NCBI GenBank assembly: GCA_002706765.1
Contig: PAJV01000076.1
Span: 124,001 to 188,000 of the forward strand
DNA length: 64,000 bases
Reading direction: 5' to 3'
Source of the DNA: Gimesia sp.
Lineage (GTDB): Bacteria; Planctomycetota; Planctomycetia; Planctomycetales; Planctomycetaceae
Position numbers and translations under genes: made by a program. A model generated the notes under the pieces. The model ran no database searches, was not told the DNA's origin, and saw nothing but the letters and a program-made list of their open reading frames with translations. Positions 7,956-37,658 of the stretch are shown here, piece after piece; the stretch's first letter is position 1; the number at the start of each line of letters is the position of its first letter.

Positions 7956-8285
7956 AGCTTGTAGATTACCTGTTTTCTAGTTTGCAGGAATCGGGAGTCT
8001 CGTTTTGCACTGCCACTGGTGTTGACTTGAATCAATCTTGACAAAAAATCGCTTTTTTTTGTATTAATACTCAAGTTACACCTCTCTCCTATTCACTTCG
8101 TGAACAATTACAACACTCTCATGTCAATTCTGCGTAGCGGGTTTCTTCCGTCCGTGGAATACAACACATCATTTACCGTTCAGCCAGTCACTCTCCTTTC
8201 CCATTCCAGAAATCACCTGCTGAAATCTCATCAGGGTGCAAATCCTGGTTAAGAACCTCCCGGTTACTTAGCAGGCTACACAGTC
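7956..8285 (+). other. Gap between ftsI and the flagellar cluster
   Basis: These 330 bases hold no gene. They contain a strong promoter candidate at 8038-8067 and about 215 bases of leader before the TPR gene. No clear terminator for ftsI is visible, so read-through from the dcw cluster is possible. Confidence 0.5.
8038..8067 (+). promoter_or_regulatory. Putative sigma-70 promoter ahead of the TPR/flagellar cluster
   Basis: A perfect -35 TTGACA (8038-8043) is followed after 18 bases, which include a T tract, by TATTAA (8062-8067). It is the best promoter match in the region and could drive the 8.3-32.6 kb transcription unit. Confidence 0.5.
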
Positions 8286-10889
8286 ATGGCCAAAGAAACG
8301 ACAGCACAACCCGAATCAGATGAGTCAGCGAACGTCGCCGTTCAAGACCGACCTGAAAAAAACTCCGGGGAGGCAGAAATGGATTCTGCAGTCTCCGAAT
8401 CGGTGGCGTTGCGCGCCCGTGTCACAGGTTTTGTCAAATCGCGCTGGAAGCTTCTGGCTGGTATCGTGCCGGTGCTGCTCGTGCTGGGCGGATATTTGCT
8501 TTCACTCTCCAGTGAACCGGAAAAGACACCCGGGGAAACTCTGGCAGAGGCGCTGCAGATCCTGGAATCATCGACTGATTCCAAAACGCGAAACGAGGCG
8601 CTTGAACTGGCTTATTCGCTGAAAAAACAAGAGTATCTGGATCCGGATTTTCCGGGTGCGTTGTACTTTATCTTCGGTATTGTGGCATTCAGGAACGCGG
8701 AAGAACTGACCGGGGAAGCGCAAGATCACCAGTATCTGATTGCCAGTCGCTATCTGAAAGAAGCAGAACGCCGGGCCATTGATCAGGAACATCGTCCGGA
8801 ATGGTGTTATGCCCTGGGGACGAGTCTCTACCTGACGGGGTCTATTCAAAAGGCACGTCCTCTGCTGGAAGAAGCAGTTAATACGTATCCGCAAGGTAAA
8901 TTAAATGCGTCCCTGTCGCTGACAGATATTTACCTCGACCACAGGGAATCTGCTGAATTAAATCAGGCTTTCGAATTAAATTCAAAATCACTGCAGCTGG
9001 AAAATCTGGATCAGGAATCACGTGATCGACTCTATTTACAGCGTGCCCAGATTTTTCTCGCACAAGGCAAGAATGACCTGGCACAGGAAGTTCTGGACCG
9101 GGTCAAGCAGCAGGAGTCTGTAAACCAGGTAACACTGGTGTTTCAGGCACAGACTCTGATGGCAGAAGAAAAGTACCAGGAAGCATTGACCATTCTGGCG
9201 CCCGTCAAAGACAACCTGGGGCTGGAGCGTAAGTTTTCGCGACAGGCATCCTATCTGATGGGGGTCTGTGCCGAGTCACAGGGTAACGCTGATGGTGCAA
9301 TTGATTTTTTTGAGCAGACCACACATCGTTATGCGGGGACACAGGAAGGACTGGCAGCATTTCTGCATCTGGCCGAATTACTGCGGAAAAACGGGCGTAC
9401 AGAAGAAGCTTTGATTGCGTATCGAACAGCCCTGCGATCCATCGACAGTCCTGACGAATTTCGCAATCGCTGGATCAGCCTGCAGGGGGTGAGGACCTAC
9501 GTGCTGAATGCCTGGAATGACTGGGTTGACGAAGACCTGATAAAAGATGATGTAACACATTTCAATGCGGCGATTCAATTGTCCGACTATCTCCCTCCGC
9601 TGCTGCCGGAAGTCCAGGCAAAAGAACTGGCAGCGAACGCCAATCGTCGCTGGGCAGAATATCTGGAACGCCGTTATCAGACAGCAACGGTAACGGAGCA
9701 GGAATCACGCAGTAGCGAATTGAATGAACACTGGAAACAGAGCGGTCGTGCCTATTTCGAACTCGCCCGGCGGTTGACCACGACTGACCGCTATGCTGAC
9801 GTTCTAGCTGTCTCTGCGGATCACTTTCAGAAAGGTCAGGACTTCGAGACCGCACTCAAAGTACTCACGCGGTTTATCAATACGAATCCGGAAAAGAAAA
9901 TGCCGCAGGCCCTGGTTCAGCGTGGCAAAATTCTGCTGGAACTCGATCAGCTTGATGAAGCGATCAGCCATTTTGAACGAGTGATGACCAATTACCCGAC
10001 CGATGTCTCTGCCTTTGAGGCCCAGTATTTACTGGGGATTGCCTATCTGGAAAAAAATGAGCTGGACCAGGCACAAACCGTCTGGAAAGAGATCCTGGAG
10101 TCGAGCCAGTTAACTCCCAAGGCGCAGCAGTGGGGGGATGCCCTGTTTTCGCTGGGAAAGTTGCATTTTCACCAGGGTAAGATTTCTGAATCTGAAAAGC
10201 AGTCTGAAACTGCTGCAGACACGTCCGCAGAGCAACTGACAGTTTCAAAACAGAATGTGTTTTATGAAGAGGCGACTCGACGACTGACCGAATATGTCAA
10301 ACGTTATCCCGAATCTGAAAAAATATCGGAAGCACGTTACCTGCTGGCACGGTCCTTACAGAATCTGTCAGATCAGCCCCTGCGGGAGATGAAGGAAGCC
10401 AGAACAGAAAACGCCAGGCAGGAATTAAAACGTAAGCAGTTCAGCTATTTAAATCAGGCCCTCTCGCAACTTCAGATCTTGAGTCGGGATTTACGTCAGC
10501 TGGAAAGTCGCGACAGACTCGATGCTCTCGGAAAACAGTTACTGAAATCAAGCTGCTTCGGCAAGGCCCACATATTATATCTGACGGAAGAGTATGCCGA
10601 AGCAATCAAATCGTACCATGATGCCGTAAACCGGTATCCGCAATGCACGGAAGTGTTGATTGCCTATATGAAAATGTCTGGTTGTTATGAAGCACTGGGC
10701 AAAAAAAATGAAGCCAAAAGCATGCTGGAACAGGCCAAAATCATTTTGAAACAGATGCCTGACAGCGTGTTCGAATCCGGGGCAACAAATCTGGGAAGGG
10801 AAGAATGGAATCGCTGGCTGGACTGGTCGCGTGAGTTTCGCGATTCCACGATTCGAACCAGCGCTCTGCCACCAGATGGTGGATCCTGA
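8286..10889 (+). CDS. Large TPR-repeat membrane protein
   Basis: This 867-residue protein has an acidic cytosolic N terminus of about 50 residues and one membrane helix (about 55-73, LLAGIVPVLLVLGGYLLSL). The rest is many degenerate tetratricopeptide repeats, with motif-like runs such as GALYFIFGIVAF, WCYALGTSLYLTGSIQKARPLL, LAAFLHLAELLRKNGRTEEAL, FEAQYLLGIAYLEKNELDQAQ and EARYLLARSLQNL. TPR arrays are protein-binding scaffolds; if the N-in topology is right, the array faces the periplasm. It lies directly upstream of the flgN-like gene with only 25 bases between, so it is probably co-transcribed with the flagellar genes. A role in flagellar or cell-envelope assembly is inference only. No enzymatic motif is visible. 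Confidence 0.75.
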   Translation: MAKETTAQPESDESANVAVQDRPEKNSGEAEMDSAVSESVALRARVTGFVKSRWKLLAGIVPVLLVLGGYLLSLSSEPEKTPGETLAEALQILESSTDSKTRNEALELAYSLKKQEYLDPDFPGALYFIFGIVAFRNAEELTGEAQDHQYLIASRYLKEAERRAIDQEHRPEWCYALGTSLYLTGSIQKARPLLEEAVNTYPQGKLNASLSLTDIYLDHRESAELNQAFELNSKSLQLENLDQESRDRLYLQRAQIFLAQGKNDLAQEVLDRVKQQESVNQVTLVFQAQTLMAEEKYQEALTILAPVKDNLGLERKFSRQASYLMGVCAESQGNADGAIDFFEQTTHRYAGTQEGLAAFLHLAELLRKNGRTEEALIAYRTALRSIDSPDEFRNRWISLQGVRTYVLNAWNDWVDEDLIKDDVTHFNAAIQLSDYLPPLLPEVQAKELAANANRRWAEYLERRYQTATVTEQESRSSELNEHWKQSGRAYFELARRLTTTDRYADVLAVSADHFQKGQDFETALKVLTRFINTNPEKKMPQALVQRGKILLELDQLDEAISHFERVMTNYPTDVSAFEAQYLLGIAYLEKNELDQAQTVWKEILESSQLTPKAQQWGDALFSLGKLHFHQGKISESEKQSETAADTSAEQLTVSKQNVFYEEATRRLTEYVKRYPESEKISEARYLLARSLQNLSDQPLREMKEARTENARQELKRKQFSYLNQALSQLQILSRDLRQLESRDRLDALGKQLLKSSCFGKAHILYLTEEYAEAIKSYHDAVNRYPQCTEVLIAYMKMSGCYEALGKKNEAKSMLEQAKIILKQMPDSVFESGATNLGREEWNRWLDWSREFRDSTIRTSALPPDGGS

Positions 10890-10914
10890 AACAGAGACTT
10901 TACCGGAGGAAGTG

Positions 10915-11409
10915 ATGTGTTCCTCACAGTTAAACCTGAAGAATGATGTAATTGATATGACTTCGACAAATATGATTGATTACCCCAAACTGTTCGCAGT
11001 GCGTCTGGAATACTCCCGGGCATTATTGACTCTGTCGCTTCAACAGCAGGAACTGATCAAAGAGGATGATTATTCCAGCCTGTTGGATGTGTTGGGAAAA
11101 AAACAGAGATTGCTGGGTCAACTGGATCAATATACGAAACAGTTGCCTCGGCTCTGGGAGCAGTGGCAGCAGGACCGGGACCTGTTACCCGACGGACAAC
11201 GCGCTGCCTGCGAGCAGATTTTGAGTGATTCGGAAGCGGTACTGGCACAACTGCTGAAGAATGAAGATACCAGTACCCAGTCGATGGTCGATCGGCGGGA
11301 TCGGACGAAGCAGCAGATTCAGTCGTTAAATCAGGGAGCAAAAGTCGGGGAAGCCTACCGTGACAGCCTGGCTCCAGCGACCCATCGGCATTTGAATATC
11401 GGTCAATAA
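10915..11409 (+). CDS. flgN: FlgN-like flagellar export chaperone
   Basis: This is a 164-residue, almost wholly helical protein with heptad-like stretches (YSRALLTLSLQQQELIKEDDYSSLL, then KKQRLLGQLDQYTKQL). The pattern matches FlgN-family chaperones, which hold hook-associated proteins before export by the flagellar type III system. Sequence identity in this family is low, so the call depends on pattern and place next to flgB-flgC-fliE. The frame is open from 10831, inside the TPR gene, but GGAGGA at 10904-10909 clearly favours ATG 10915, which removes the overlap. Confidence 0.55.
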   Translation: MCSSQLNLKNDVIDMTSTNMIDYPKLFAVRLEYSRALLTLSLQQQELIKEDDYSSLLDVLGKKQRLLGQLDQYTKQLPRLWEQWQQDRDLLPDGQRAACEQILSDSEAVLAQLLKNEDTSTQSMVDRRDRTKQQIQSLNQGAKVGEAYRDSLAPATHRHLNIGQ

Positions 11410-11458: not shown

Positions 11459-12907
11459 ATGAATCATAGTTTATTGCACAGCTCTACATCACGTGGTCTG
11501 ATTCAGATTGTCTCTGAAGACCGGATCCGCAGACTGGAAGTCTGCACGCAATTTTCGAACCTGGGATATACGGTCATCCCCTTGACCGAAATGACATTCA
11601 GTCCGACATCCCAGCGACCGGATGCCGATATCTGTGTGCTTCTGGATCAGAGGGCGATCACGGAATTTATGTTTGCCGTCGAGTCTGTTGCAGAGCAGAA
11701 TCTGATCCCGGTGTTGTATTATCCCGTGTTGACGCACGAGATTCAGCAGGCCTGCCTGAAGCCTTCCCGGACTGCATCGCATGAAACGATGGCCCCGTTT
11801 GCAGAACTGCGTTCGAATGACACACTGGATCAGATCAGTCGCATCCTGGATTCCGCCATCAAATATTCCCGTCTGTCGCGCGAATGTACTGAGTTGATTT
11901 CGGAATTGAATCTGCGTTCCAGTCGCCGTCTGATCGGATACAGTCAGTCCATCCAGACCTTAAGAGACCGGATTGCAGATCTGGTGCATCTGCGAACTCC
12001 CGTACTGGTTCAGGGGGGAGTCGGTGCCGAACTCTCTGTGGTGGCGGAAATCATACATGATTCCATGTTCCTGAATTATCAGCCTCTGATCAAAGTCAAC
12101 TGCAGCGCGTTAACAATTGAAAATGTGGAACGGGAATTAATCGGTTATTATTCCAATGAAAAAAGCAGTTATTCTGATGAGCCCGTCTGGAATCCAGGCC
12201 AGTTAGAACAGGCAACGGGTGGCACACTCGTTCTCGATCAGGTCCATCTGACATCACTGCCTGTACAGGCGGCTTTGCTGAAAATTCTGGAAAGTGGCGA
12301 ATATTACTCGCCCGAAGATGGTCAGCAGAAAAAATGGAACTGTCGCTTAATCTCACTCAGCCAGTTCTCGCTGCATGAACTGGCGGCACAGAATCAGTTT
12401 AAGCGAAAACTGGCAGGAATCCTGTCCGCTTCCATTCTGGCGGTTCCCTGTTTAAATGATCGGAAAGAAGATCTCGCACTGCTGACTGAAAATCTGTTAA
12501 GCGAAGTCGCTTTGTCTGAAGGAACCGTTCCCAAGCTGTTGACTCTGGATGGCCTGGAACTGTTGAAGAAACATGACTGGCGCGGAGATGTTCAGGAACT
12601 GCGAAATCTGATTCAACACGTGAACCGGATTGATAACAGCCCGCGCCTGGATGCTGCCAGTTTATTGCCCTGGATTGATTCGGAATCGATTGCCAGTGCC
12701 GATTCCCTGACGGGCATGACTTTGCGTGAAATGGAACAGAAACTGATTGAAAGTACTTTTGCACGCTGTGGAGGCAATCGCGAAAGTACGGCCCAGATGC
12801 TGGACATCGGTTTGAGAACGCTTTCGGGAAAACTCAGATCTTACGGATATCCGCCTCGCGGAGGCCCGGATTCCAAGCGGACTTTTTCGGTCAGGCGTGC
12901 TGCCTGA
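11459..12907 (+). CDS. Degenerate sigma-54 activator-like AAA+ protein with Fis-type HTH
   Basis: This 482-residue protein follows the plan of NtrC-family enhancer-binding proteins but lacks the catalytic residues. Residues 1-135 form a divergent receiver-like domain without the usual acidic pocket. Residues 155-400 align with the AAA+ domain: RRLIGYSQSIQTLRDRI, then GGVGAELS at 186-193 where Walker A (GxxxxGK) should be, then GGTLVLDQVHLTSLPVQAALL at 254-274, where Walker B ends D-Q rather than D-E. The GAFTGA sigma-54 contact loop is absent; the region around 225-240 reads ERELIGYYSNEKSS. The arginine-finger region is also altered (FKRKLAGI). The C terminus keeps a Fis-like helix-turn-helix (MTLREMEQKLIESTFARCGG and after). 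It probably binds DNA without ATP-driven activation, perhaps as an antagonist or scaffold in flagellar control. The stop of this gene is 37 bases before flgB. Confidence 0.75.
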   Translation: MNHSLLHSSTSRGLIQIVSEDRIRRLEVCTQFSNLGYTVIPLTEMTFSPTSQRPDADICVLLDQRAITEFMFAVESVAEQNLIPVLYYPVLTHEIQQACLKPSRTASHETMAPFAELRSNDTLDQISRILDSAIKYSRLSRECTELISELNLRSSRRLIGYSQSIQTLRDRIADLVHLRTPVLVQGGVGAELSVVAEIIHDSMFLNYQPLIKVNCSALTIENVERELIGYYSNEKSSYSDEPVWNPGQLEQATGGTLVLDQVHLTSLPVQAALLKILESGEYYSPEDGQQKKWNCRLISLSQFSLHELAAQNQFKRKLAGILSASILAVPCLNDRKEDLALLTENLLSEVALSEGTVPKLLTLDGLELLKKHDWRGDVQELRNLIQHVNRIDNSPRLDAASLLPWIDSESIASADSLTGMTLREMEQKLIESTFARCGGNRESTAQMLDIGLRTLSGKLRSYGYPPRGGPDSKRTFSVRRAA

Positions 12908-12944: not shown

Positions 12945-13409
12945 ATGTTAGATCAGGTTTTAAATTCGAACGCATTACCGCTGCTGGAAAAAATGGCGGC
13001 GTTCGCGGAACGGCGTCAGGATGTCCTGGCAGGGAATATCGCGAATATCGACACGCCATCCTACAAGATGCGAGATCTCCCCGTGCAGGAGTTTCAGCAG
13101 GCTTTGCGTGATGCCGTCGTTTTGAAGGAAAATGCAGCTGATCCGGTCTCTCGTTCCTCTTTAGCGATGCCAGTGACGCTGTCACAGCCAAAATCGGCCG
13201 AAGCACAACTGGAGGACCTGTTTCCCCGCAGCCTGTTTCAGGCACGGGAAGCAGCACCACAAAACCTGACGTTTCAGGATGCCAATAATCGAAGTGTGGA
13301 ATCACAGGTGATGCAGATGACCAAAAACTCAATGATGCAGCAGTTCGCCGTGGAAGTGATGATGGCACAGATGAATCAATTATTGACGGTCATTTCAGAA
13401 CGGGCCTGA
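12945..13409 (+). CDS. flgB: Flagellar basal-body rod protein FlgB
   Basis: FlgB is the proximal rod subunit next to the MS ring. The N-terminal rod motif is present (RRQDVLAGNIANIDTPSYKMRDLPV) and the C-terminal helix NSMMQQFAVEVMMAQMNQLLTVI closes the protein, as in the family. ATG 12945 gives 154 residues; the frame extends upstream to 12897, but those codons overlap the preceding gene's end and do not match FlgB. It is first in the flgB-flgC-fliE-fliF order common to many bacteria. Confidence 0.93.
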   Translation: MLDQVLNSNALPLLEKMAAFAERRQDVLAGNIANIDTPSYKMRDLPVQEFQQALRDAVVLKENAADPVSRSSLAMPVTLSQPKSAEAQLEDLFPRSLFQAREAAPQNLTFQDANNRSVESQVMQMTKNSMMQQFAVEVMMAQMNQLLTVISERA

Positions 13410-19194: not shown

Positions 19195-19647
19195 ATGAAA
19201 AAATTTCATTTTCAATTTGAATCAGTGCTCAAAATGCGACGGCATAAACGCAGCATGTGCCGTCAGCTGCTGGGGGAAATGCTCCAGGCTGACCAGCGGT
19301 TGATCGATCAGACCGCGCACCTGCAGCAACATCGCACAGAACAGTTTCAGGAAATCCGTTCACGGCAGTCGGAAGGGCGGGTTGACATTGATGGGGCAAC
19401 CAGCCTGCGCTATTACGCCGGCCAGTTGCAGACACAGATACAGTCTCTCGGTGCCAACCGTGAAATCGTGGGGAAACAGATTGCCCTCTGCAGACAGACT
19501 TTGGCAAAAGCCGAGCAGGAAGTCAAAGCCATGGAAAAACTGTCTGATAAATATCGCGCTGCCTTCGTTTATACACAAAATCAGAAAGAAATGATCGAGC
19601 TCGAAGAAACCTGGTCAGCTACCCGTCAGACAGGAGGTGTTCAATGA
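19195..19647 (+). CDS. fliJ: Flagellar export protein FliJ
   Basis: FliJ is the small coiled-coil stalk of the FliI ATPase ring. The protein begins MKKFHFQFESVLKMRRHKR, the expected FliJ opening, and is helical throughout with long coiled-coil stretches; it ends in a segment rich in K, E and Q. ATG 19195 gives 150 residues. An in-frame GTG at 19180 would add only MKPDE and is less likely. The stop overlaps the next gene's start in an ATGA junction, which suggests coupled translation. Confidence 0.85.
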   Translation: MKKFHFQFESVLKMRRHKRSMCRQLLGEMLQADQRLIDQTAHLQQHRTEQFQEIRSRQSEGRVDIDGATSLRYYAGQLQTQIQSLGANREIVGKQIALCRQTLAKAEQEVKAMEKLSDKYRAAFVYTQNQKEMIELEETWSATRQTGGVQ

Positions 19648-26976: not shown

Positions 26977-27531
26977 GTGGCAACAGACACCGAAACGCAA
27001 GAGCCTGGTGTCGATACGGAGGCGGTTGCTTCAACAGAAGCAGCATCCCAGGGGCAATCGAAAGGAAAACTGCTGAAGATTGGCGGATTATTACTCCTGG
27101 TAATTATCCTGCAGATCGGCATTTCTTACTGGCTACTGACTCCACCGGCTCAACCCGCTGAACTGGCAGAAGATACACTTTCGAAAGGGAGTGAAAACCT
27201 GCAGGTAACCACAGCAGAAGTGACTGTTGATAACTTCAGCGTGACGAATAATATCGCCGAACCGGGAGCGACCATTCATGTCACATTTAATCTGGTGGCA
27301 CTGGTCGAGCAAGGGGCCGCTTCTGATTTTGATTCCATGATCAAAGAGAAGAGTAAAGCACGTGTCAAGCAGGCGGTCATCGAAGTCGTGCGAAAATCCA
27401 GTCTGGGTGACCTGAATGATCCACAGTTAAGTACGATGAAACGCATGATGAAAGAGTCCATTAACAAGGTACTCAAAAAAAGTTATGTCATCGAGACTGT
27501 GATCAGCGAATATCGCACAATGACACAATAA
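26977..27531 (+). CDS. fliL: Flagellar basal body-associated protein FliL
   Basis: FliL is a bitopic stator-associated protein. A 25-residue acidic tail, a membrane helix (LLKIGGLLLLVIILQIGISY) and a periplasmic stomatin-like domain (VTNNIAEPGATIHVTFNLVA, then KRMMKESINKVLKKSYVIET) fit the family at 184 residues. The start is GTG 26977 behind AAGGAGG, a strong site. It lies 29 bases before fliN, where fliM would normally follow. Confidence 0.85.
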   Translation: MATDTETQEPGVDTEAVASTEAASQGQSKGKLLKIGGLLLLVIILQIGISYWLLTPPAQPAELAEDTLSKGSENLQVTTAEVTVDNFSVTNNIAEPGATIHVTFNLVALVEQGAASDFDSMIKEKSKARVKQAVIEVVRKSSLGDLNDPQLSTMKRMMKESINKVLKKSYVIETVISEYRTMTQ

Positions 27532-34307: not shown

Positions 34308-35870
34308 GTGTTCTTTACTCAAACAATCAGGCGCAAGCTGGGGCTCGGGCTGGGGATTATCTTCTTCATGCTGATTATCATGGCCTATGGCGCTGTGTCT
34401 GGTTTACAGTCTTATCACAATACGGTTTATGAGTTTAAGTACTCGCTGGATAACCTGCCCAACCGTGATCGCATGATTGTCTCTGTGGTCGCCCTCAATG
34501 AACCTCTGCAGAGAATTCGCCAGTCCCGTCCGGCTGCCAGTGCGCATTATCAGCAGGAGTTCGATAAACAGGTGCTGGAAGTAGAGACGGAAATTAAGGA
34601 CTTTCTCAAAAAAGTGGATCGGTTGCCCGCGGACCCGGCAATCAAAAACTGGAAAGGCTTCGTTGAATCACAATTGAGCGGACACAGTGCCTGCATGTCA
34701 ATCCTGAATCAGCTGAAGTTGATGAAGGTGCAACTGGAGGATCCCCAGCAACGCCTTAAAGTGGCTGAGCAGATGATTCTCGAAGTAGCACATCTGGAAA
34801 CACTGATCCTGGAAGTACGTGATGTTCCTTCTGGCACGAAGGCTGTTCTGACACGTGCTTCTTCGGTTTATCGTTCCCGCTTTAACCTGGTCTGGGTGAC
34901 CTGCGTCGTCGTGTTTGTCACATTTGGCTGTCTGATCTGGTATGGTTACCGTACTGTGCTTGCGCCGATTCAGGCATTGCACGAAGGGGCACGGATCGTC
35001 GCCCAGGGGCATTTTGACCACCATTTCGAAATCAAATCGAACGATGAGATGGGGGAACTGGCGGTCGCATTCAACAAGATGACCATGCGGTTCAAAGAGA
35101 AACGGGACGAATTGAATCATAAGGTGGACGAGCGGAGTAAACAGCTGGTTCGCTCAGAACGCCTCGCGGGAATTGGTGTGCTGGCAGCAGGGGTGGCACA
35201 TGAAATCAATAATCCGCTGTCTGCTATTTCGATGGCATCGGAATCTTTACAGGGACGCATGGTCGACCTGAAACCACATTGTGAGAATGCGGATATCGAA
35301 GTCGTCGAGCAGTACCTGGGGTTAATTCAGCGGGAATCGATGCGTTGTCGCGAGATCACCTCAAAGCTGCTGGATTTTTCCCGTGGCCAGAATTCCGTTC
35401 GCAGTCAGAATGATCTTGTGTCTGTCATTCATGAAGTCTGCTCGATGGTCAATTTGATCAAGCGTCTCAAAGGCAGAAACATACATTTCTCAGATCACAA
35501 GCCCTGTAATGCGGAATTTAATCCTGCCGAAATCAAGCAGGTGGTTCTCAATATCATGACCAATGCAATGGAATCGATGGAAGTGGGTGGAAATCTGGAA
35601 ATCGAGGTCCAGGAACACGTTGATTCCGTTACGCTGATTTTTCGGGACGATGGTCGGGGTATGACCCAGGAAGTCAAAGAAAGCCTGTTTGATCCCTTCT
35701 TTACGCAACGGGCAGATGGAACAGGGACGGGCCTGGGTATGTCAATCACACATCGGATCGTAAAAGATCATGGAGGTGAGATCGAAGTGGAAAGTCCCGG
35801 CCCCGGTAAGGGGAGTACAATTTTTGTGGAACTGCCGAAAAAGACTAAGATGCAAAGTGCAGCAGCATAA
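34308..35870 (+). CDS. Sensor histidine kinase (HAMP-HisKA-HATPase)
   Basis: This is a membrane sensor kinase of NtrB/ZraS type. TM1 (LGLGLGIIFFMLIIMAYGAV) and TM2 (VTCVVVFVTFGCLIWYG) flank a helical periplasmic sensor of about 150 residues. After TM2 comes a HAMP domain, the H-box AAGVAHEINNPLSAISMASE with the phospho-accepting His, and a HATPase with NIMTNAMESME, DDGRGM and GTGTGLGMSITHRIVKDHGG. The start is GTG 34308 with GGAGG nearby. Its likely partner is the NtrC-type regulator encoded next; this is inferred from adjacency and family type. Confidence 0.9.
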   Translation: MFFTQTIRRKLGLGLGIIFFMLIIMAYGAVSGLQSYHNTVYEFKYSLDNLPNRDRMIVSVVALNEPLQRIRQSRPAASAHYQQEFDKQVLEVETEIKDFLKKVDRLPADPAIKNWKGFVESQLSGHSACMSILNQLKLMKVQLEDPQQRLKVAEQMILEVAHLETLILEVRDVPSGTKAVLTRASSVYRSRFNLVWVTCVVVFVTFGCLIWYGYRTVLAPIQALHEGARIVAQGHFDHHFEIKSNDEMGELAVAFNKMTMRFKEKRDELNHKVDERSKQLVRSERLAGIGVLAAGVAHEINNPLSAISMASESLQGRMVDLKPHCENADIEVVEQYLGLIQRESMRCREITSKLLDFSRGQNSVRSQNDLVSVIHEVCSMVNLIKRLKGRNIHFSDHKPCNAEFNPAEIKQVVLNIMTNAMESMEVGGNLEIEVQEHVDSVTLIFRDDGRGMTQEVKESLFDPFFTQRADGTGTGLGMSITHRIVKDHGGEIEVESPGPGKGSTIFVELPKKTKMQSAAA

Positions 35871-36260
35871 TGCTTTAGTGACATTCTCAGCTGATTGACT
35901 TTCTGCGATTCTCCGATTGCCACGATTTTCAAAATCTGATATTACACGTCTCTCCCCACAAATGATTCACACAAAGTTCACGATACAGGAGAAAAAGGAT
36001 GTTCTCTGTACTGCAGGCAAATCTCAGTCTTTCTGTTCCTGATTTGACACAGTTCGTGCAGAGAAAGGTCCTGGATGGAGTCCCGGTTCCGGGGCTGCAG
36101 CTTTGAGTATCGATACTGAAGAACAGGATGAGCCAGTTCACTGCGAGCCGGCTTTCTTCAGCGCCTTTCTAATAATCCTTCCTGAATACCATTCGGTTAT
36201 GTAATTTGTTAAATGGCTTTCTCTTTGACAGGATGTCAGAGCAGGAAGAAGGAGCACAAC
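35871..36260 (+). other. Gap between sensor kinase and response regulator
   Basis: About 390 bases without a supportable gene. The sequence is AT-leaning in part. A sigma-54-like element at 36045-36060 (TGACAC-N5-GTGCA) departs from consensus at the invariant GG and is not convincing. AAGGAG at 36249-36254 is the ribosome site of the following gene. Confidence 0.4.
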
Positions 36261-37658
36261 TTGAGTAATTCAGTCAATAAATTACGGGTCCTGTTTGTCG
36301 ACGATGAAGCGGCAATTCGGGAAGTCATGCGAATTGAGCTGCCACGCATGGGACATGATGTCACCATTTGTGAAGATGGCCAGTCGGCATTAACGGCATT
36401 AGATAAAATTACATTTGATGCAGCCATCGTTGATTTACGCATGCCTGGTTTGAGTGGCTGGGATGTGGTCGATCATATTAATAAGGTCTCTCCCGAGACC
36501 GAAGTGATTATCAGCACCGGGCACGGCAGTATCGACGAAGCCATTCAGGCGATCCGACGCGGCGCGTATGATTTCCTGCCCAAACCATGCAAGCTGATCG
36601 ATATTGCGACCGTGTTACAGAAAGTCGCTGATAAACGATCGCTGCAGAATAAAAATTATGCCCTGGAATCCCGGTTGAAAAGTGTGGAAGGGCCCTGCCA
36701 GATTGTGGGGGAAACTCCCCCGATGATGCGGGTCAAAAAGCTGATTGAAAAGATCGCGCCAACCGATTCCACAGCTCTGATACTGGGAGAAACCGGGACG
36801 GGTAAAGAACTGGTCGCACGACGGGTTCATGATTTAAGTACACGTGCTTCAATGCCCTTTGTCCCTGTCAACTGCGGAGCCCTGCCGGAAAACCTGGTGG
36901 AAAGTGAACTGTTTGGCCATCGCAAAGGTGCTTTTACAGGTGCCGATACACCACGTAAGGGTCTGATCGAGATCGCCAATGGCGGGACCCTCTTCCTGGA
37001 TGAACTGGGTGAGCTGGACAAAACCATGCAGGTGAAGCTGCTGCGTTTTCTGGAATCGGGAGAAGTCCGTCGTGTCGGTGACAGTGAAACGTTCCATGTC
37101 GATGTGCGAATCGTCTGTGCGACGAATCGCGATTTACAGGACATGGTTGCAGAGGGCAGCTTCCGCGAAGATCTTTATTTCCGTGTCAATACCTTTGAAA
37201 TCAATCTGCCTGCACTACGGGAACGCAAAGGGGATATTCCGGAAATCTCCCGTGTACTGTTGAAACGGCATCTGAAAAAAGATTCCATTCCCCAGGATAT
37301 CCTGGCACCGGAAACGGTTGAGATTCTGCAGGAATATGACTGGAAAGGGAATGTTCGTGAACTGGCCAACGCCTTGGAACATGCCGTGATTTTATGGGAC
37401 GGCGTTCAGATCCAGCCCGTCGATTTACCCTCCAATCTGACCCGGCATTCTTCGATTCCGATCTCCTCTGGTTCGACTGCCATTAACTGGACTGAAGGCA
37501 TGGAAGGAAAAACGTTGCGGGATATCGAAATGGAAGTGATCTACCATGTGCTCGACAAACATGATGGGGATAAGCCAAAATGTGCGTCAGAACTGGGGAT
37601 CGCTCTGAAAACGCTGTACAACAAACTGAATCAGTATCAGACCCGGGCCGCTGGTTGA
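36261..37658 (+). CDS. NtrC-family sigma-54-dependent response regulator
   Basis: The three-domain plan is complete. The receiver has the acidic pocket (VLFVDDEAAIRE) and phospho-Asp (DAAIVDLRMPGLSGWD). The AAA+ domain has Walker A (LGETGTGKELVARRVH), the sigma-54 contact loop GAFTGA (FGHRKGAFTGADTPRKG) and Walker B (GGTLFLDELGELDKTMQVKL). A Fis-type helix-turn-helix closes the protein (CASELGIALKTLYNKLNQYQ). TTG 36261, with AAGGAG six bases upstream, gives 465 residues; ATG 36213 adds 16 unlikely residues. It probably activates sigma-54 promoters in response to the kinase encoded before it, with flagellar genes as plausible targets. This intact activator contrasts with the degenerate one in the flagellar block. 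Confidence 0.93.
   Translation: MSNSVNKLRVLFVDDEAAIREVMRIELPRMGHDVTICEDGQSALTALDKITFDAAIVDLRMPGLSGWDVVDHINKVSPETEVIISTGHGSIDEAIQAIRRGAYDFLPKPCKLIDIATVLQKVADKRSLQNKNYALESRLKSVEGPCQIVGETPPMMRVKKLIEKIAPTDSTALILGETGTGKELVARRVHDLSTRASMPFVPVNCGALPENLVESELFGHRKGAFTGADTPRKGLIEIANGGTLFLDELGELDKTMQVKLLRFLESGEVRRVGDSETFHVDVRIVCATNRDLQDMVAEGSFREDLYFRVNTFEINLPALRERKGDIPEISRVLLKRHLKKDSIPQDILAPETVEILQEYDWKGNVRELANALEHAVILWDGVQIQPVDLPSNLTRHSSIPISSGSTAINWTEGMEGKTLRDIEMEVIYHVLDKHDGDKPKCASELGIALKTLYNKLNQYQTRAAG

Follow-up and report, generated by a model that had tools for sequence, protein, structure and literature searches.

The window, by which we mean the whole stretch of 64,000 nucleotides that was analysed, contains a flagellar operon region, and an ORF near the head of this operon (11459-12907) encodes a protein that we label REG. 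The family to which the window belongs is labelled f1, and the position directly 5' of flgB is referred to as the slot. The features are:

8026-8070, forward strand: putative sigma-70-like promoter 5' of the operon, with TTGACA at 8038 and TATTAA at 8062, aligned in 12 genomes of the genus
8286 to about 32600, forward strand: flagellar operon region, with genes for TPR, FlgN, REG, FlgB, FlgC, FliE, FliF, FliG, FliH, FliI, FliJ, FliK, FlgD, FlgE, MotA, MotB, FliN, FliO, FliP, FliR and FlhB (Pfam)
10831-11409, forward strand: flgN-like gene (longest ORF), ending 49 bp upstream of REG
11459-12907, forward strand: REG gene, encoding a putative degenerate NtrC-type regulator of 482 residues, between flgN and flgB
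11459-11848, forward strand: REG residues 1-130, remnant receiver, from alignment with slot orthologues of other families
11927-12457, forward strand: REG residues 157-333, AAA+ core with a K-to-L change in Walker A, DQ in Walker B, no GAFTGA and no arginine fingers
12458-12682, forward strand: REG residues 334-408, AAA+ lid with the sensor II arginine changed to Q
12719-12877, forward strand: REG residues 421-473, Fis-type HTH with the RTLSGKLRSYGYPPRGG tail; this part hardly varies within f1
12945-13409, forward strand: flgB, from an in-frame ATG at 12945, starting 37 bp 3' of REG
34308-37658, forward strand: a separate intact pair, outside the system described here, consisting of a histidine kinase (34308-35870) and an NtrC-type regulator (36213-37658)

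Pfam matched neither of two further ORFs in the flagellar region (at 19644 and at 26977), and the 37-bp gap between REG and flgB contains no sigma-54-like site. The putative promoter at 8038-8067 was judged against the sigma-70 consensus. A conserved block, CTTGAATCAAT, abuts it; the conserved sequence at 8026-8043, CTTGAATCAATCTTGACA, reaches into the -35-like box of this Gimesia operon and could be an operator. The kinase-NtrC pair comes shortly after the flagellar region, downstream of a PP2C phosphatase gene.

REG is matched by the Pfam family Sigma54_activat (88.7 bits, cut-off 20.2), by AAA_lid_14 and, at residues 421-462, by HTH_8 (Fis-type). No receiver domain was matched in it by Pfam at E 0.01; another f1 member (L094) has a sub-threshold receiver match (23.0 bits, cut-off 30.2). 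REG was aligned with the solved NtrC1, the motif names and the critical residue in each motif being those that we take to apply. Walker A is GESGVGKE in NtrC1 and GGVGAELS in REG, so that the lysine is replaced by leucine, and Walker B is LDE in the one and LDQ in the other. SSYSDE stands at the position of the GAFTGA loop. The arginine-finger segment FREDLYYRL reads FKRKLAGIL, with both finger positions changed, and the sensor II segment GNVREL reads GDVQEL. A structure prediction from a four-sequence alignment reached a pLDDT of 35.6 and gave a model of no use. The initial annotation had described an AAA+ fold and Fis-type HTH that lacked the Walker A lysine and GAFTGA, had D-Q for Walker B and an altered arginine-finger region, and had concluded that such a protein could not be a normal activator. 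The Pfam matches and the alignment bear out each of these points, and by its sequence REG cannot act as a normal sigma-54 activator. It descends from such an activator but no longer functions as one.

The losses are not peculiar to Gimesia. Of 248 genomes that sample the class, picked evenly from a larger group, 68 belong to f1; a REG orthologue is present in 59 of these, and the other nine gave generic matches only. None of the 59 proteins has GAFTGA. The Walker A lysine is retained in five, the Walker B glutamate in two and the second arginine finger in two, and no protein combines the three (0/59, versus 26/26 for the slot orthologues of other families described below). Other positions are less widely lost: the Walker B aspartate is kept in 42 of the 59, the first arginine finger in 29 and the sensor II arginine in 37, so the ATPase positions have not all gone everywhere. 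The four receiver residues never occur together in f1 (0/59); taken singly, each residue of the acidic pair is kept in one protein, a single protein retains the lysine, and 38 have the phospho-site aspartate. Each of the four is found in 26/26 proteins elsewhere. Like losses across 59 genomes rule out recent decay or a sequencing error; the check that the initial annotation had named, an alignment of planctomycete orthologues, shows the losses conserved within f1.

The position of the gene varies within f1. REG lies directly 5' of flgB in 25 of the 59 genomes, adjoins a fliF-like gene in seven and does neither in 27, where six flagellar queries found no match within the examined flanks (mostly 1.5 to 3 kb per side). 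A fixed place in the flagellar operon, as first proposed, therefore applies to the genus (13 genomes) and not to the family. Since the 27 REGs without flagellar neighbours nest among the others in the tree, the gene moved out of the operon on more than one occasion. REG is still kept in four genomes (G037, G053, G132 and G216) that have no match to flgC or FliG; two others (G096 and G183) have no FliG match, but a fliF-like gene adjoins their REG. Conversely, five f1 genomes have the same flagellar operon with the slot empty. These five are among 20 f1 flgC loci, of which one (L147) has REG and 14 have a different, low-similarity flgC cluster without it. RpoN is encoded in 68/68 f1 genomes, which rules out loss of RpoN as the cause of the REG losses. 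In a further set of 30 loci REG was found in four, and an unrelated intact activator in one (L115).

Two other kinds of flagellar locus were seen in f1. The 14 loci just mentioned (L134-L146 and L148) represent a second type of flagellar cluster; REG is absent from it, and its flgC has only weak similarity to that of the window (E 1e-15 to 1e-19). In L097 (G065), L079 (G018) and L080 (G057), frames of 602-692 residues with weak FliG_C matches stand beside REG, near fliF-like similarity; they look as if they encode a fused FliF-FliG, perhaps in an unusual flagellar or export cluster.

Where does REG come from? A tree of 95 rows, made by a quick method from the AAA+ core to the C-terminus, places 51 f1 REGs in one clade (SH-aLRT 100). 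This clade adjoins 26 intact slot activators from other families (SH-aLRT 95), and 18 paralogues from REG's own genome fall apart from both (SH-aLRT 99); the REG stem is long and some rows are long too, so that branching within f1 is unsure. The tree rules out an origin of REG from another activator of its own genome, and gene order agrees with it: by sequence comparison REG is clearly orthologous to the slot activators. Some of the paralogues are themselves unusual. L018 and L019, neighbours on contig C76 (about 425-428 kb) and a close pair in the tree, keep the GK of Walker A, but their Walker B reads LED and GAFTGA is missing. L017 (C77:237972-238472) has intact Walker motifs and second arginine finger, and an SSLQYPS-like sequence in place of GAFTGA; it is a candidate for another sigma-54-independent NtrC homologue.

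Nine other families supplied 26 genomes in which the gene 5' of flgB encodes an intact regulator, with a receiver, an AAA+ core with full motifs and an HTH of the same type. Intact orthologues in the same place had been named as the finding that would point to recent decay; they do exist, but only outside f1, so that the loss dates to the f1 stem. The 26 were chosen from 40 other-family flgC loci, 23 with a full NtrC-type gene 5' of flgB, 16 with none and one (L177) dropped as a contig-end fragment, to which three slot loci (L088, L090 and L092) were added because the REG search matched there. Having been selected for the slot gene, they represent the genomes that keep it, not all other families. 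Pfam was run on three of the 26 regulators and on one of their kinases, the remaining kinases being found by tblastn. GAFTGA is present in 22/26 and GAFTSA in 4/26.

The surroundings of the slot also differ. A histidine kinase gene lies 5' of the regulator in 26/26 of these loci versus 0/24 f1 slot loci. A sigma-54 -24/-12 site lies between regulator and flgB in 25/26 at a penalty of 2 or less (17/26 at 1 or less), counting each genome once (as run, the tally was 26/27 because genome G146 entered twice); the best penalty in the 24 f1 slot loci was 3.5, so that none has such a site. The median gap between regulator and flgB is 234 bp in the other families versus 30 bp in f1. When whole loci were scanned, 23 from other families gave 20 sense and two antisense sigma-54 matches (1.8 expected per strand), and six from f1, five of them with an empty slot, gave no sense and two antisense matches. 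Inspection of the 26 loci further revealed inverted repeats of the form CGGCA-N5-TGCCG, mostly upstream of the -24 element and often paired 21-25 bp apart. With up to one mismatch there are 35 of these, against a mean of 0.66 and a maximum of three in shuffled sequence. By its anatomy, the slot of the other families is an ordinary flagellar two-component sigma-54 circuit.

One part of REG has changed very little. Compared with the rest of f1, the REGs of the genus average 11% identity over the N-terminus, 31% over the AAA+ core, 35% over the lid and 76% over the HTH. The recognition helix RTLSGKL is found in 58/59 f1 proteins and the tail YGYPPRGG in 59/59. Within the genus, dN/dS for REG is 0.064-0.145 (five of seven pairs computable), compared with 0.050-0.111 for flgB, and dN in the HTH is 0.008-0.031. 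DNA binding thus looks like the function that REG has retained, as in one of the roles that the initial annotation had suggested. Among the slot orthologues elsewhere, RTLSGKL occurs in 16/26 and RTL[ST][GNA]KL in 22/26. REG shares its helix with many intact slot proteins, which makes the old enhancer sequence the obvious candidate for its binding site.

We therefore searched 80 hand-picked whole genomes with CGGCARNWNYTGCCG, using the reversed form as control. In 45 f1 genomes with REG there were 681 site versus 204 control matches, the site outnumbering the control in 42. The nine f1 genomes without REG had 51 versus 72 (excess in two), 16 genomes with an intact slot activator 107 versus 78 (excess in ten) and ten other genomes 46 versus 122 (excess in two). 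The excess separates genomes with REG from those without (Mann-Whitney p 0.0007 by genome and 0.0025 by genus; genera with excess 22/25 versus 2/7, Fisher p 0.005; these tests ignore shared descent). The exceptions are the genera g7, g21 and g28, which have REG and no excess, and, by genome, G057, G140 and G219 (REG, no excess) and G192 and G234 (no REG, excess). REG's own genome has 18 CGGCA-N5-TGCCG sites versus six reversed, and of 15 examined 11 lie inside ORFs as called by a simple gene caller; two further Gimesia genomes have 17 versus 11 and 14 versus 8. Some sites outside genes may be terminators (L192 and L194). The 64,000-nucleotide window itself has no exact site. At two mismatches it has 43 against 29.6 expected, a number matched by one of 100 shuffles, and we did not take this as a signal.

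Which genes might these sites control? In 17/17 Gimesia genomes a site lies 39-44 bp 5' of a second motB, whose product is matched by MotB_plug in Pfam; it is exact in 13 and has one mismatch in four, and its spacers vary. Other intergenic sites recur across Gimesia species at genes whose products look like exported proteins or are lipoproteins. In two other genomes sites were found 5' of flhA (L309; FHIPEP, 561.9 bits), csrA (L296; 89.3 bits) and several lipoprotein-like genes; of the 53 sites in these two genomes 30 were examined, and 17 of the 30 are outside genes according to the simple caller, which over-calls in GC-rich DNA. No convincing site was found at the promoter of the Gimesia flagellar operon. 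As the window also lacks an exact site, the operon may not be a target of REG here. The initial view of REG as a flagellar control protein is too narrow, given the four genomes that keep REG without flgC or FliG matches and the many non-flagellar-looking genes that candidate sites precede. A separate feature of the second motB locus is a block, TAATGTTGTAGATATTTATTG...TTCGTCAATGA, that is near-identical in 17 genomes of the genus (L224-L240) and lies about 250-300 bp 5' of motB, between it and an RNase D-like gene.

The regions upstream of REG itself were also scanned. With the first locus of each genus, 6/23 genera fell in the top 5% of windows, but two of the six best matches (L073 and L074) sit within the REG coding sequence. 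High scores at +31 in the coding start of REG in g10, g12, g19 and g27 were discounted as coding. Upstream of 34 REG genes that lie elsewhere than in the flgB slot, the most frequent inverted repeats recur among related genera only.

Taken together with these comparisons, the explanation that we consider probable is that a sigma-54 activator became a DNA-binding regulator independent of phosphorylation and of ATPase activity, with a wider regulon and acting probably at sigma-70-type promoters. The ancestor would have been a phosphorylation-controlled activator, encoded with its kinase just 5' of flgB, that acted from the often-paired CGGCA-N5-TGCCG sites on the sigma-54 promoter of flgB. On the f1 stem the kinase gene, the receiver chemistry, the ATPase, GAFTGA and the flgB promoter would have been lost and the HTH retained. 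Present-day REG would bind CGGCA-N5-TGCCG as a dimer, with no need of phosphorylation or ATP hydrolysis, and would control sigma-70-type promoters, its own among them in several genera. Its regulon would have widened to take in, depending on the genus, genes such as motB, flhA and csrA, together with many whose products look like exported proteins or lipoproteins. We infer both the binding to this site and the partnership with sigma-70 from the comparisons above. The sign of control would depend on placement, with repression presumably where the site overlaps a -35 box and perhaps activation where it lies upstream. A possible -35 box follows the site on 9/59 sides with a downstream ORF, versus about 2.8 in shuffled sequence, and on 0/17 sides without one; this is a weak signal from a test shaped post hoc.

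A tentative variant is that REG is chiefly a repressor, and an autorepressor, that blocks RNA polymerase at sigma-70-type promoters. In four genera the candidate site is fused with a -35 box, as TTGAC[AG]-N5-TGCCG, 5' of REG genes that are orphans or beside fliF (L047, L050, L052 (g23), L053/L097 (g9), L074, L076 (g2) and L077 (g12)), and in L075 it lies within the -35/-10 spacer. Such merging of the site with a -35-like box upstream of REG genes outside the slot suggests autorepression. Several of the fused-site loci, however, are near-copies from one genus, and at other genes (L296, L308, L311, L314 and L316) the site precedes a possible -35 by 5-11 bp, a placing more like that of an activator.

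It is also conceivable, though unlikely, that the AAA+ remnant serves as a sensor by binding a nucleotide or a second messenger such as c-di-GMP, which would be compatible with a phosphorylation- and ATPase-independent regulator. FleQ and VpsR, which sense ligands through their AAA+ cores, provide the model. The core and lid are still matched by Pfam and are under purifying selection, and five of the 59 proteins have the P-loop lysine, but f1 as a whole shows no conserved P-loop motif.

A role for REG as a DNA-binding antagonist of an intact sigma-54 activator, or as its partner in a hetero-oligomer, seems very unlikely. The genome does encode RpoN and 16 activators with catalytic motifs (L001 and L002-L016). 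The counterpart that the initial annotation proposed is the NtrC-type protein that it correctly placed 24 kb away (36213-37658). This pairing found no support in the comparison, since that regulator has its own kinase (34308-35870), has LKTLYNKL in place of the RTLSGKLR recognition helix of REG, and groups in the tree with the other own-genome paralogues and not with the flagellar-slot clade. More generally, the REG helix is absent from all 18 other own-genome proteins whose C-termini were compared (L001 not covered), the sigma-54 promoter at which REG could compete is gone, and the second arginine finger survives in 2/59 only. Least probable is that REG is a dying relic under relaxed selection, heading for loss, with its sites owned by another factor: the nine of 68 f1 genomes without REG (five with flagellar operon and empty slot), the long stem branch and the fast N-terminus would fit, but dN/dS values of 0.06-0.15, near the 0.05-0.11 of flgB, the near-frozen HTH across 59 genomes and the retention of REG in the four genomes without flgC or FliG matches do not.

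REG may be set beside several known systems. FlgSR, FlrBC and FleSR are flagellar two-component sigma-54 systems, and the slot system of the other families resembles them in its kinase and NtrC-type regulator, its flagellar locus and its sigma-54 promoter 5' of flgB; of such a system the HTH would be the sole working part left in REG. FleQ of Pseudomonas is likewise a flagellar NtrC-type regulator that acts at other promoters too, but it retains GAFTGA and ATPase activity. TyrR of Escherichia coli shares with REG an NtrC-type core without GAFTGA, and represses as well as activates sigma-70 promoters; unlike REG it has ACT and PAS sensor domains and an ATP site. VpsR of Vibrio cholerae uses c-di-GMP. 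Like REG it is a GAFTGA-less homologue, but nothing comparable to its use of the aspartate and c-di-GMP is visible in REG. Passages of PMC10274813 place VpsR at sigma-70 promoters, describe it as said to be ATP-independent and report that it uses the aspartate site. The same passages describe the NtrC proteins of Rhodobacter capsulatus and Caulobacter as GAFTGA-less activators at sigma-70 promoters that keep their kinase and phosphorylatable aspartate, the Caulobacter protein also needing its Walker motifs. These proteins have in common with REG the NtrC architecture and the absence of GAFTGA, and act at housekeeping promoters by experiment where REG would do so by inference; they differ from REG in that, in REG, kinase, receiver chemistry and ATPase motifs have all gone.

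PMC12316311 reports that the sigma-54 regulon predicted for Planctomycetia contains motility genes, and on Pirellula activators it refers to Studholme and Dixon 2004. Flagella are treated in PMC10945688. In the open-access literature we found no paper on a degenerate flagellar NtrC-type regulator in planctomycetes. Given R. capsulatus and Caulobacter NtrC, VpsR and TyrR, the loss of GAFTGA and a move to sigma-70 are changes of a kind already known. What is new here is how complete the loss is, how old it is across the whole family, and that the site is in excess.

The broadest statement of the case, to which we would give an even chance, is that a two-component, ATP-driven sigma-54 activator of flagellar genes turned, family-wide, into an input-free pseudo-AAA+ global regulator, with kinase, receiver, ATPase, sigma contact and promoter all lost, its HTH frozen, its enhancer multiplied into a new regulon, and the protein outliving the flagellum in some species. 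The loss of GAFTGA with a switch to sigma-70 has hitherto been known from individual proteins. The present case allows each gene of an entire sigma-54 circuit to be compared with what became of it, between families of a single bacterial class, and the activator, the kinase, the promoter and the binding site can be read in both states. How a sigma-54-dependent activator may lose its machinery and yet persist thus becomes directly testable, with a candidate binding site named.
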